Source: Puniceicoccaceae bacterium Marseille-Q1082
GTDB lineage: Bacteria > Verrucomicrobiota > Verrucomicrobiia > Opitutales > Intestinicryptomonadaceae
Direction of reading: 5' to 3'
Assembly (NCBI GenBank): GCA_904424815.1
Contig: CAJGBI010000002.1
Span: 704,206 to 768,205 of the forward strand
DNA length: 64,000 nucleotides
Part shown: piece after piece, positions 6,827-10,138 of the stretch
How the letters are laid out: each line of letters begins with the position of its first letter
How positions within the stretch are numbered: the stretch's first letter is position 1
Made by a program: the position numbers and the translations under genes
Notes under the pieces: model-generated
The model's database searches: none
Seen by the model: the letters and a program-made list of their open reading frames with translations, nothing else
What the model was told of the DNA's origin: nothing

Positions 6827-6951
6827 GATTGACGGATTTTTATTTCCAATTAAAAATTCCATGAAACGGGAAATTGCGGAGGCTATGCGCCGTACGCGCG
6901 GACTTCGAATATCGAGGCATGGGGGGCGCCGTTTGTGGCGAGGCATTTTAT
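6827..6951. repeat. Direct repeat copy D1 flanking the toxin-antitoxin module
   Basis: 125 bp matching 7558-7682 at a constant offset of 731 with four mismatches (about 97% identity). It contains a copy of the last 22 codons and stop of the FAD oxidoreductase gene plus 56 bp of downstream DNA. The similarity stops sharply at 6951, 16 bases from the toxin stop codon. Confidence 0.95.
6883..6951 (-). pseudogene. Displaced 3' end of the FAD oxidoreductase gene
   Basis: In minus-strand reading this encodes the same final 22 residues and stop as the intact gene ending at 7614, with one substitution (Gln to His). There is no start codon or 5' part. It is best read as the original gene end, left behind when the toxin-antitoxin block arrived, or as a tandem-duplication remnant. 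Confidence 0.85.
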
Positions 6952-6967
6952 GCAATGCGCTTGAATT

Positions 6968-7297
6968 TCAGAGATTCAAAAGGTTCCGCAGATTCGATTT
7001 GACTTCGTTCAGATCGTTTTTTGGCAAAGTCCCGAGCTTTCTCGAAAGCGAATGCCTGTCAATGCTTCCGAGCCCTTGAAAATTTATTGCTGAGGGTTTG
7101 GGAAGCCATTTTATATGGGTTATGTCATATTCTCCGTCGCCGCCGCGTATTTGCGAAGTTATCGGGGCGACAATGGCAAGCATTCTGGAGTCGTCGGGCT
7201 TTGGATAGTAGAGTACGAGAACCGGACGTATTTTCCCGGTCGTCCCCAGATCGGCAATCCATATTTCGCCGGCCCGCGGCTTTTGCCTAATATTCAC
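6968..7297 (-). CDS. MazF/PemK-like mRNA interferase toxin
   Basis: 109-residue toxin of the MazF/PemK/CcdB fold. The N-terminal segment RAGEIWIADLG and strand KIRPVLVLYYP are the family hallmarks, and APITSQ and the final helix also fit. Family members cleave RNA at short sites and are neutralised by a co-expressed antitoxin. The start is GTG at 7297, overlapping the antitoxin stop by 11 bases, which implies translational coupling. The partner is RelB/DinJ-like rather than a MazE-type protein, a mixed pairing. The gene ends 16 bases from repeat D1. Confidence 0.85.
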   Translation of the reverse strand: MNIRQKPRAGEIWIADLGTTGKIRPVLVLYYPKPDDSRMLAIVAPITSQIRGGDGEYDITHIKWLPKPSAINFQGLGSIDRHSLSRKLGTLPKNDLNEVKSNLRNLLNL

Positions 7298-7517
7298 CCA
7301 GCGCCTCGTTCCAGATTTTGCCCTGTTCTTCGTCGGACATCAGCCTTTCGGGCTTTGTAGTAACCGCAAACGGCAAATCTCCCCGCAGATCTACTTGCGA
7401 AATAAATATGTTTATCGCATCGGACATTTTCAGCCCGAGGCGCGCGAAGATCTTTTCCGCCTTTCTTGCTTTTCTGGAATCGACGCGCGCCCTAACCAAT
7501 ATAGTTGCCTCTTTCAT
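7287..7517 (-). CDS. RelB/DinJ-family antitoxin
   Basis: 76-residue antitoxin with the RelB/DinJ ribbon-helix-helix pattern: a short strand (ATILVRARVD), a helix, then GLKMSDAINIFISQV and LPFAV. Such proteins dimerise, bind their own promoter and hold the toxin with the C-terminal tail, here PERLMSDEEQGKIWNEALGEY or part of it. ATG 7517 is preferred; a TTG six codons upstream (7535) is in frame but falls inside the -10 region. The promoter (7525-7554) and a repeated-hexamer operator lie directly upstream, so autoregulation is likely. Confidence 0.88.
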   Translation of the reverse strand: MKEATILVRARVDSRKARKAEKIFARLGLKMSDAINIFISQVDLRGDLPFAVTTKPERLMSDEEQGKIWNEALGEY

Positions 7518-7524
7518 GGGCAAA

Positions 7525-7554
7525 TATATGCTCAAAAATGCTCATTAGTGTCAA
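7525..7554 (-). promoter_or_regulatory. Toxin-antitoxin promoter, leaderless arrangement
   Basis: On the minus strand, a perfect -35 TTGACA (7554-7549), 18-base spacer and -10 CATATA (7530-7525). The antitoxin ATG begins 7 bases after the -10 box, leaving essentially no 5' leader. The promoter lies wholly inside the block between the two direct repeats. Confidence 0.6.
7528..7543. promoter_or_regulatory. Candidate antitoxin operator: two ATGCTC hexamers, 10-bp period
   Basis: ATGCTC at 7528-7533 and again at 7538-7543, one helical turn apart and overlapping the -10 box and spacer. Ribbon-helix-helix antitoxins often bind tandem hexamers spaced this way. The binding role is inferred. Confidence 0.5.
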
Positions 7555-7557
7555 TAG

Positions 7558-7682
7558 GATTGTCGGATTTTTATTTCCAATTAAAAATTCCAAGAAACGG
7601 GAAATTGCGGATGCTATGCGCCGTACGCGCGGACTTCGAATATCGAGGCCTGGGGGGCGCCGTTTGTGGCGAGGCATTTTAT
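7558..7682. repeat. Direct repeat copy D2 (3' end of the intact FAD oxidoreductase gene)
   Basis: Second copy of the 125-bp repeat (see 6827-6951). Here it is the functional end of the gene: 69 bp of coding sequence with the stop at 7614-7616 and 56 bp beyond. It begins 41 bases upstream of the antitoxin start. Confidence 0.95.
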
Positions 7683-9587
7683 TTCTATTTTCCTTATGTC
7701 GGCGGGCTCGAAATCGAAAACCAGCCTCTTCTGGTAGTTGCCCCGCACGTCCGCCAAAATCCTTTTCGAGCCGTCCGCGAGCGTCGCGGAAATTGTGAAG
7801 TCTCTGAGCGCCTCAGGCTGCGGGCCCTGTATGACCCGCTTCACGAATCCGGTTTCGAGGGTGGGCGTAAGCAGCCGCGAGCCCGTGTCGAGATTGAGAA
7901 TCAGCTTCCCGATTTTCTGCGGCGCGCCCCATTCGAGCGACAGGGCGGGGGACTTTTCTATCGGTGCTTTCCAGCGGTTGCCGTTTGAGCCCGCGATGTC
8001 GTAGCACATGCCCGAGACGACATTTTCGGGCTTTGTCCCCTCCGCCGAGTCGGTCGCCGAGATTTTCGCGGCTCTGGCCAAGTCGAGGGGGTCGGAGTTT
8101 TTTGCCCCGAGTATTATCTGGCCGTCTTTCAAAAGGTTTTGCCGCAGCCTTTCGGCGAGCTCCCCCGACGCGGAAATTTCGCGCGGGGCGAGGTTTTCCC
8201 TTGCGCACATAGCCGCCGCCGTCCCCGCCGCCTGGCCCGCCACGGAGCAAGAGTTCATCACGCGCGTGGAGGTGAACGCCAAGTGGCTTGCGCTCATGTT
8301 GCGCCCCGCCATCATCAGGTTTGAAAACCCCTTGGCGCACATTATCGAAAGCGGCAGGTTGTAGAACGGAACCTGCCCGCCGTAGATTGCCGGCTTTTTG
8401 CCGCGCGCGTAGAATCCCTCCGAGGTCTGGTCTTCGAGCGGCCAGCCGACGGCGCCGACCTGGTCGGGCATGGATTCCCATCCCTTTTCGATGTCGCGCT
8501 GCGTGAAGACGCGCTCGCCGACTATCCGGTAGCTGTCGCGCTTGCCGGGGATCATTCCCACAAAGTCGATAGCCCTGTTTGCCGCCTCGGGGTATTTGCC
8601 GCTGTTTTTGATGTAGTCCCACACTCCGAGCACGATGGAGAGCAGCTCGAAGCGTATGACCTCGTTGTCGCGTATGGTGTCCGCCATGCCGCCGTGCGAT
8701 ATGAACCAATAGCCGTAGTCGAAGCCCCATTTTGCGGGGTCGCGCAGTTTGAGGTCTTCGGCGGAGATTTTTTTCGCCCACGCCGGAGCCTTGAAGGCGA
8801 CGGGCCTGCCGCAGTCCTTGGAGGTGAACATTATGGAGCTGCACAGGAATTTGCCCTTTTCGTAGGTGTCGGCGAGCGGCTCCCCGTACTTTTCGGAGCC
8901 TTCCCTGCCCGCCATGAGCTCCGCGCCCGCCTCCATCGCGAGCCTCGAATCGCCCGTGCAGTCTATGTAAATTTTCGACTTGATGCGGTAGATTTTAAGG
9001 GTTTTGTCGCAGCGCGCGTAGGCTGCGGATATTCTGCCCCCCTCGGCGTCGGCGGCGTAGACGGAAGTGTCGAGCAGCAGAGTGAGATTGGGTTCGGTGA
9101 CGCACTTGTCGTAGAGGAGCAGGTCCCACATCTCCCACGAGCGCTGCGGGTTGTTCGCGGCGTTGTCGAGTTTTATTTCCTCAATGATTCCGGCCTCGCG
9201 CCAGCCCCATTTGTCGCCGTTCACCCCGAGCGGGTGCATTTTTATCTCGCTGCTCGAATTTCCCCCGAGCCTCGACCTGTCCTGGACGAGGACGGTCTTC
9301 GCCCCGTTGCGGGCGGCGGCGAGAGCCGCGCAAATTCCAGCGAGGCCGCCGCCCGCGACCATGACGTCGCACCCGAGCTCCTCTTTGGACATGTTCGGCT
9401 CCGCGGAGAAGTCGAAAAATTTCCCCCTCGTCTTGGCCTCTATTTCGCGCCCGAGGGGGCTTTTTGCCGCGCTGTCCGCGCGCGCCTCGGGGACGCTGAC
9501 CGAGAGAGTATACCCCAGGAGCGACATCGCCGACGCCCCCAAAAATTCCCTGCGCCCGAAGGCGCAATTATCGCTGCCGGATTTCAT
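7614..9587 (-). CDS. Tat-exported FAD-dependent oxidoreductase
   Basis: 657-residue protein with a twin-arginine signal (GRREFLGASAMSLLG, residues 11-25), so it is probably exported folded. The FAD-binding motif is GGGLAG at 79-84, followed by LGGNSS, the pattern of the FAD_oxidored (PF12831) family that is frequent in Verrucomicrobiota and Planctomycetes. The last 150 or so residues look like a beta-rich, discoidin-like domain. The substrate is unknown; carbohydrate oxidation is a guess from family distribution. ATG 9587 is chosen, and ATG 9596 (three codons longer) is also possible. It follows the Tsr3/DTW-like gene by 38 bases. Its 3' end is duplicated at 6883-6951. Confidence 0.88.
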   Translation of the reverse strand: MKSGSDNCAFGRREFLGASAMSLLGYTLSVSVPEARADSAAKSPLGREIEAKTRGKFFDFSAEPNMSKEELGCDVMVAGGGLAGICAALAAARNGAKTVLVQDRSRLGGNSSSEIKMHPLGVNGDKWGWREAGIIEEIKLDNAANNPQRSWEMWDLLLYDKCVTEPNLTLLLDTSVYAADAEGGRISAAYARCDKTLKIYRIKSKIYIDCTGDSRLAMEAGAELMAGREGSEKYGEPLADTYEKGKFLCSSIMFTSKDCGRPVAFKAPAWAKKISAEDLKLRDPAKWGFDYGYWFISHGGMADTIRDNEVIRFELLSIVLGVWDYIKNSGKYPEAANRAIDFVGMIPGKRDSYRIVGERVFTQRDIEKGWESMPDQVGAVGWPLEDQTSEGFYARGKKPAIYGGQVPFYNLPLSIMCAKGFSNLMMAGRNMSASHLAFTSTRVMNSCSVAGQAAGTAAAMCARENLAPREISASGELAERLRQNLLKDGQIILGAKNSDPLDLARAAKISATDSAEGTKPENVVSGMCYDIAGSNGNRWKAPIEKSPALSLEWGAPQKIGKLILNLDTGSRLLTPTLETGFVKRVIQGPQPEALRDFTISATLADGSKRILADVRGNYQKRLVFDFEPADIRKIEIKCLATNGAPQASIFEVRAYGA

Positions 9588-9625
9588 GGGCGGCATTTTC
9601 CGCGTTTGTCGGGCGCGGGGCAACA

Positions 9626-10138
9626 CTAAATTTGCGCGCCGCCGCAGAATACGCTCTCGGAGGCGTCGAAGAAATCGGGGGAGGGCAGGTCGGATAGCCA
9701 CCCGTTGATTTCCATGAATTTTCTCGCAAACGGATAGCCTTTCAATACGGACGGGTCGGGATTGCCGGACAGCTTTGTCGCGGCGTACAGCGCCTCGACG
9801 GTGGCGAGCCCCGCGGGGTCTCCGAAGACTTTGGAGACGCGCGGGTACGCCGTCCGGATTTCCGGCGGGATAGAGCGGGCTGTGAATTTTCCGCCGACTT
9901 TCGCGCGCAGCGACGGCAGCAGCCGCCAGGTGCTGTCGAGCAGCAGTATCGGCAGGCCGGCGTCGGCGGGCGTCACGGGCGGGGCGCCCATTTCGAGCAG
10001 CAAAAAACCCGTGGCGTCGAAGAAGAATTTTTCCGACGCCCTGAAAAACTCGAAGTTCGGATTGCCGTGCAGGCGGCGCAGGGAGCACTTTTTGACGTTT
10101 TCCCTGGGGTGGCGAATGACTGCGACTTTGGCTTGCAT
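9626..10138 (-). CDS. Tsr3/DTW-superfamily (TDD) aminocarboxypropyltransferase-like protein
   Basis: 170-residue protein. The N-terminal motif KVAVIRHPRENVKKCSL, the central LLLDSTWRLLP and the C-terminal TAYPRVS, GLATVEALYAA and FMEIN follow the pattern of the TDD superfamily. That superfamily comprises Tsr3, which adds an acp group from SAM to rRNA, and the DTW proteins TapT/DTWD, which add acp to tRNA uridine. The assignment rests on motif order, not on a search. Its ATG overlaps the queC stop as TGATG, so the two are translationally coupled and an RNA-modification role fits. Longer in-frame starts run into queC. Canonical Tsr3 is archaeal and eukaryotic, so this bacterial form merits attention. 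Confidence 0.65.
   Translation of the reverse strand: MQAKVAVIRHPRENVKKCSLRRLHGNPNFEFFRASEKFFFDATGFLLLEMGAPPVTPADAGLPILLLDSTWRLLPSLRAKVGGKFTARSIPPEIRTAYPRVSKVFGDPAGLATVEALYAATKLSGNPDPSVLKGYPFARKFMEINGWLSDLPSPDFFDASESVFCGGAQI

Follow-up and report, generated by a model that had tools for sequence, protein, structure and literature searches.

A RelB-MazF toxin-antitoxin module flanked by duplicated 3' ends of an FAD oxidoreductase gene: a candidate insertion with long target duplication in Verrucomicrobiota

In our view, the movement of chromosomal toxin-antitoxin (TA) modules off plasmids, phages and integrons is poorly known. Islands that sit at the 3' ends of genes duplicate the gene end, restore the host gene and carry an integrase. 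For restriction-modification genes of Helicobacter pylori, insertion with long target duplication has reportedly been described by Nobusato et al. in 2000 and by Furuta et al. in 2010. This type of insertion was recognised when two H. pylori genomes were compared, and it is said to accompany restriction-modification genes frequently (PMC1643837). According to a review (PMC3874152), some restriction-modification systems show long and variable target duplications of about 100 bp and are unlinked to known mobile elements. Similar statements are present in PMC3031569, which adds that the direct-repeat forms can amplify by crossing-over. For a segment of a restriction-modification locus in one H. 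pylori strain, one homologous and one non-homologous joint were inferred (PMC4615327), and TA and restriction-modification systems are compared in PMC2654758 with a citation of the 2000 paper. In the passages covered by a full-text literature search, no report of long target duplication was found for TA modules.

Within the window, i.e. the whole 64-kb stretch of DNA that was analysed, R is the sole direct repeat of at least 40 bp that was reported. Its two 125-bp copies, R1 (6827-6951) and R2 (7558-7682), have a spacing of 731 bp and share 97% identity. The four mismatches are located at 6832/7563, 6862/7593, 6881/7612 and 6919/7650; only one of them is coding, with Gln in the used copy R2 and His in the stranded copy R1. 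A search of the window's own 2.70-Mb genome (G000) at E<=1 retrieved these two copies, both at this locus, and no third one, the four remaining matches reaching at most 33.7 bits. The target gene, on the minus strand like all the features described here for this locus, encodes an FAD-dependent oxidoreductase (7614..9671; PF12831, E 9e-70) with homologues in relatives; the actual start of the gene probably falls within this frame. Its end is intact. The stop codon TAG is at 7614-7616, and R2 comprises the last 22 codons (7617-7682), the stop and 56 bp downstream (7558-7613). R1 is a second end of the same gene, stranded beyond the toxin. The sequence-only reading was right in describing 125-bp repeats with four mismatches on both sides of the TA block and in recognising them as the 3' end of the FAD oxidoreductase gene, one copy being in use and the other stranded.

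The inserted unit (6952..7557, minus strand) is exactly 606 bp long and has a GC content of 48.3% versus 58.9% for the window, i.e. about 10 points lower. It begins with a promoter region (7521..7557) with a TTGACA element, set 3 bp in from R2, that is conserved in a same-genus relative (G005). A direct repeat in the promoter region, GAGCAT-TTTT-GAGCAT, is a possible autoregulation operator. The first gene (7287..7520) encodes a RelB/DinJ-like antitoxin of 77 aa, recognised by TIGR02384 RelB_DinJ (46.4 bits, cut-off 45.65) and PF04221 RelB (26.4 bits, cut-off 22.4). Its end overlaps the start of the second gene (6968..7297), which encodes a PemK/MazF-like toxin of 109 aa. The toxin matches PF02452 PemK_toxin (E 4e-14; 53.1 bits, cut-off 23.1) and has no match in NCBIfam, and its family profile matches solved MazF structure chains. 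We can predict that the module is a type II TA operon with a RelB/DinJ antitoxin and a MazF/PemK toxin. It is like known RelB/DinJ-MazF/PemK modules in gene order, gene overlap, sizes, and Pfam and NCBIfam families, and would pair a RelB-class antitoxin with a MazF-class toxin. The earlier claims that the unit holds only a promoter, a RelB-like antitoxin and a MazF-like toxin, and that it has no integrase, also stood, the TA genes and promoter filling all of its 606 bp.

This locus shares with the Helicobacter insertions, as they are described, a small addiction-type unit, a long and variable duplication of about 100 bp and the lack of a linked known mobile element. As in insertion with long target duplication, the unit lies between the copies of a long direct repeat of its target, and the length and sequence of the repeat vary by site. 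The cargo differs, being here a type II TA operon, and the bracketed cases belong to the phylum of the window or are labelled verrucomicrobial, one (L085) being labelled planctomycete. In addition, the Helicobacter case comes from two strains that were compared, whereas the window's arrangement is known from one genome. The window has in common with islands at gene 3' ends the duplicated gene end and the restored host gene, but its unit is of about 600 bp with no integrase, and across loci there is no common att core and 5' gene parts are involved too. The structure is real, and its reading as an insertion is well supported. Our favoured explanation, which we hold to be fairly probable, is that a minimal RelB-MazF operon came in horizontally and became joined to the 3' end of the FAD oxidoreductase gene, so that a long stretch of the target was duplicated, and that no site-specific recombinase was needed.

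The neighbours of the unit are the ProRS and FAD oxidoreductase genes, followed in one direction by the genes for HAD-like and EamA proteins and in the other by those for QueC and a Na/Pi cotransporter; there is no integrase among these six neighbouring genes. The toxin has one match in its own genome. Among 13 same-genus relatives a match was obtained in G005 only (66% identity), at another site (L023/L067) with flanks unrelated to those of the window and no bracket. The DNA similarity between the window and G005 spans the promoter, the antitoxin gene and the greater part of the toxin gene, and goes no farther; the conserved unit is therefore promoter-antitoxin-toxin, as bracketed by R1 and R2. 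In plasmid and phage collections the toxin had no match at E<=1e-5. The FAD locus was compared, by DNA and by R alone, with 88 genomes (own genome and the 13 same-genus ones included). There was no other strain of the species among them and the relatives are too distant to provide an empty site, which counts against the favoured explanation. The one close match among viral contigs, with 57% identity, is a relative of the TA module on L119 (1115-3221). An integrase-like gene is located about 580 bp beyond this toxin (PF00589, 26.0 bits, cut-off 27.1; PF22022, 24.1 bits, cut-off 27), and just a 24-bp repeat surrounds the module. A form of the module carried by an integrating element or a recombinase may exist.

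Brackets were sought at other MazF-type loci by comparison of the sequence before the module with the sequence after it. With a first toxin profile, 52 loci were obtained from genome contigs and 2 more from viral contigs; 14 of 387 genomes of the phylum had matches to a second one, 15 in all. Among the first 25 loci, window included, strong repeats at most about 60 bp from the end of the toxin match were found at L073, L074, L079, L081, L085, L088 and in the window. Further bracketed loci in the phylum sample (14 loci) were L126, L129 and L130. In a uniform close-bracket test (ungapped, positive at a score of at least 50), 8 of 67 MazF loci were positive, namely L130, the window, L081, L074, L126, L079, L088 and L129, the next score being 20. 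Seven of these are independent, since L081 and L088 share their repeat. The 67 loci are what remained of 69 when L100 and L111 were left out for their short flanks; the near-identical L109 and L116 were both counted as negatives. L073, with a 733-bp repeat, and L085, with a 79-bp repeat, are additional cases in which the upstream copy is more distant from the module. No such bracket is present at the other 59 loci, which counts against the insertion reading. As a control, pseudo-cassettes taken from the same loci scored at least 50 in 7 of 952 cases. Four of these lie over one four-copy interspersed repeat (L071), two over one real bracket of L085 around a DUF6036 nucleotidyltransferase gene, and the last is a weak match with 59% identity (L094). 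The Fisher test gave p of about 1e-6 (8e-6 if L081 and L088 are taken as a single case), for control positions that overlap and are not independent.

Each of the eight positive loci either belongs to the phylum of the window or has a verrucomicrobial label, and the bracketed L085 has a planctomycete label. Among the more distant L090-L118 (27 of the 67 loci, with mixed and mostly non-verrucomicrobial labels), none reached 24. The weaker repeats of L068 (38 bp, 84%), L119 (24 bp) and L082 (22 bp) were not counted, nor were a 79-bp repeat far downstream in L076 and a 361-bp match at 67% in L087 that corresponds to two similar genes. Relatives of the TA block with other gene ends, for which the sequence-only reading had proposed to search, were thus found at several loci. 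The TA unit looks acquired, its insertion being linked to the duplication of the end of a gene. L085 also contains the second bracketed cassette met in the control (L085:5797-6854), in which 88-bp repeats (84%) surround the DUF6036 nucleotidyltransferase gene. A 354-aa gene contains one of these repeat copies in its 3' portion, and the nucleotidyltransferase gene has a weak AbiEii similarity.

Among the repeats compared, the DNA differs from locus to locus, L081/L088 being the sole shared pair; a 30-bp match was seen between the L074 repeat and L087. The repeat lengths range from 59 to 733 bp. The readable repeats lie mostly at gene ends, either 3' or 5', and the targets are unrelated. Besides the 3' end of the FAD oxidoreductase gene in the window, they are the 3' ends of a glucuronyl-esterase-like gene (L081/L088, PF22244), of a 3-keto-disaccharide hydrolase gene (L085, PF06439) and of a 70-aa gene that has no Pfam or NCBIfam match (L074). 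A 5' gene part is the target at L126 and also at L073, the latter with no family match, and part of an AbiEi-like gene is the target at L130 (PADLOC E 8e-26, below the NCBIfam cut-off and with no Pfam match). By eye, no common motif was seen at the unit ends of ten cases. In L129 (G284), a repeat with many matches in that genus is located just past the stranded copy (L129:1920-2083), and a search with L129 in 31 genomes gave matches to the toxin, to its neighbours and to a multicopy repeat. L081 and L088, which come from separate assemblies, have the same collinear structure with 90.5% identity over 1.84 kb, and the toxin frame of L088 appears broken. In L081 the stop TGA of the intact gene is supplied by the module joint, and after the stranded copy come TAA and L088-like sequence; this TAA could be the older stop. 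The two copies of L081 differ at 1 of 74 sites, and the L081 and L088 orthologues differ at 5 sites (upstream copies compared) and 7 sites (downstream copies compared) (L081:3636-4427, L088:1286-2031). This suggests that the L081 copies were homogenised by gene conversion between them. Because they look homogenised, the 4-in-125 difference between R1 and R2, whose comparison with the genome background the sequence-only reading had proposed, is unsafe as a clock.

If a TA operon entered the 3' end of the FAD oxidoreductase gene, the gene would keep a complete end, R2, and a second end, R1, would be stranded past the toxin. Two routes are the best candidates for such an entry, and their molecular steps are those that we infer. 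In the first one, DNA from a relative with the module beside the same gene would be joined by homology on one side and by an illegitimate joint on the other side, and part of the recipient's own gene end would be left as a stub. Homology-facilitated illegitimate recombination, as treated in PMC3240628, would leave such a stub through its one homologous and one illegitimate joint. In the second route, break repair with template switching would copy the module and then resume upstream of the point of departure. Addiction would select the cells that keep the joint, since recombination of R1 with R2 would cut the module out cleanly.

A Campbell-type event, in which a circle with the gene end and the TA genes recombined homologously into the chromosomal gene end, would also yield the order R-TA-R with a small divergence (4/125). 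The collinear L081 and L088 indicate in addition that two species can have such a locus in common, whether through inheritance or through transfer. However, a separate circle with the matching gene end would be required at every locus, the targets being unrelated. Neither plasmids nor phages gave a toxin match (E<=1e-5), and the close viral match has only its 24-bp repeat. We consider this event unlikely. The sequence-only reading had proposed site-specific or homologous integration of a circle with a replacement gene end. In the site-specific form, the recombinase could act in trans on a minimal cassette, at an island att or an integron attC site, or the unit could be what is left of a decayed larger element. 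Like island att sites, the 606-bp unit has a repeat at a gene 3' end and R2 restores the gene, and the L119 module is near an integrase-like gene just below the Pfam cut-off. The site-specific form is not supported by the comparison of loci: except for L081/L088 the repeats are unrelated between loci, they range from 59 to 733 bp, and they include 5' gene parts at L126 and L073. The unit ends of the ten cases have no common sequence by eye, and the nearest neighbours of the window's unit are the EamA, HAD-like, ProRS, QueC and Na/Pi cotransporter genes. Integron gene cassettes differ as well, since the flanking repeats are unrelated between loci and R in the window is partly coding. Despite L119, the varied repeats of the remaining loci do not fit one recombinase, and a shared att-like sequence at the joints is not supported by the sequences compared. 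Site-specific integration in any of these forms is thus quite improbable.

The target genes were also analyzed where the module is absent. The L081 region has matches in 80 of the 387 genomes, mostly in the esterase gene. A duplicated gene end without the TA genes, which the sequence-only reading had set as an outcome that speaks against it, was absent from all 16 usable FAD homologues (392 to 1437 bp downstream, scores at most 16) and from all 10 usable esterase homologues (scores at most 17), 1 of 17 FAD loci and 2 of 12 esterase loci having been left out. No MazF relative is present in any of these loci. Unlike the ten esterase homologues, L081 and L088 carry both the duplicated end and a MazF relative. 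These data bear on the possibility that the TA module is native and that the gene end was tandemly duplicated together with it, one TA being lost afterwards. This needs no foreign DNA and gives the order R-TA-R. It requires, however, two events at each of several loci, and it has to face the 16 FAD homologue loci without a MazF relative, the GC content of the unit (10 points lower) and the same-genus TA relative at another site with unrelated flanks. A native module is very improbable.

For the favoured explanation, an acquired operon joined into a gene end, L126, the one locus that allowed a comparison within its genus, gives a hint about the route. The L126 region has a match in 14 of 21 same-genus genomes, source genome included. 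The target gene is single-copy in nine same-genus relatives, and blastn found nothing of the module next to it. On the left of R_up, similarity exceeds that of shuffles in 2 of 7 relatives (L139 and L142), and on the left of R_dn in 3 of 7 (L135, L137 and L143), 2 of the 9 relatives being left out of this test. Such mixed left flanks do not fit a simple one-step duplication of a single ancestral site. They could mean that the module arrived with the gene start of a relative, with homology on one side.

That some related modules of other bacteria sit between duplicated ends of other genes suggests a route into chromosomes for such modules, through a joint in which the landing spot becomes duplicated. 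As a more tentative extension, on which we would not insist, small TA operons of Verrucomicrobiota may be mobile without their own recombinase. Random joints with long duplications would be kept because cells that lose the module pay for it, and insertion into genes would be harmless thanks to the duplicated end. It is plausible that addiction itself selects such captures. If true, addiction would be the driver of mobility, in line with what has been put forward for restriction-modification systems, and TA modules would be linked to restriction-modification genes by their route of genome entry. A footprint that recurs and can be searched for, namely a bare operon flanked by long copies of its target, would provide a handle on TA movement. 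In strain collections, ages, donors, target choice and loss by repeat recombination could be measured.

Brackets were also counted with a common test for other families in samples of the phylum. They were present at 7 of 27 ParE loci, 3 of 14 MazF loci, 2 of 30 PIN loci and none of 29 cold-shock loci, with 3 of 30 ParE loci and 1 of 30 cold-shock (CSD) loci left out. Fisher p was 0.004 for ParE and MazF versus cold shock, and 0.017 for the three TA families versus cold shock. Five of the ParE brackets (L154, L156, L157, L162 and L168) look like interspersed repeats by eye; the ParE repeats are therefore not counted as target duplications, and the claim rests on MazF. L154 and L156, from the same genus, have similar flanking repeats and the same kind of next gene, and probably represent one inherited arrangement. 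That interspersed repeats on both sides of the window's module are there by chance, or are an assembly artefact, is hardly credible: several ParE brackets do look so and the L071 repeat has four copies, but R is partly coding, its only two copies in G000 differ from each other, and L081 and L088 have the same structure in two separate assemblies. In E. coli K-12, none of six TA loci is bracketed (one flank is of 201 bp for mazEF and of 498 bp for chpSB), which, like the low PIN count, speaks against the favoured explanation.

In 1.264 Mb from three genomes, window included, six two-copy brackets without a single spanning frame were found, copy numbers being those within this sample: one in the window, one in L272, two in L310 and two in L311. 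Among the inserts inspected, those of the window, of L310 and of the first L311 bracket, the window's alone is known to hold TA genes. Long-repeat footprints are thus not confined to TA modules, which also speaks against the favoured explanation, and per locus they appear commoner at TA modules. In L310 (11606-12187, G199), 52 bp of the start of a 498-aa gene are duplicated (92%), with 478 bp between the copies in which no ORF was seen; this footprint resembles a target duplication but has no TA. L311 contains a 244-bp repeat in and near an integrase-like gene.
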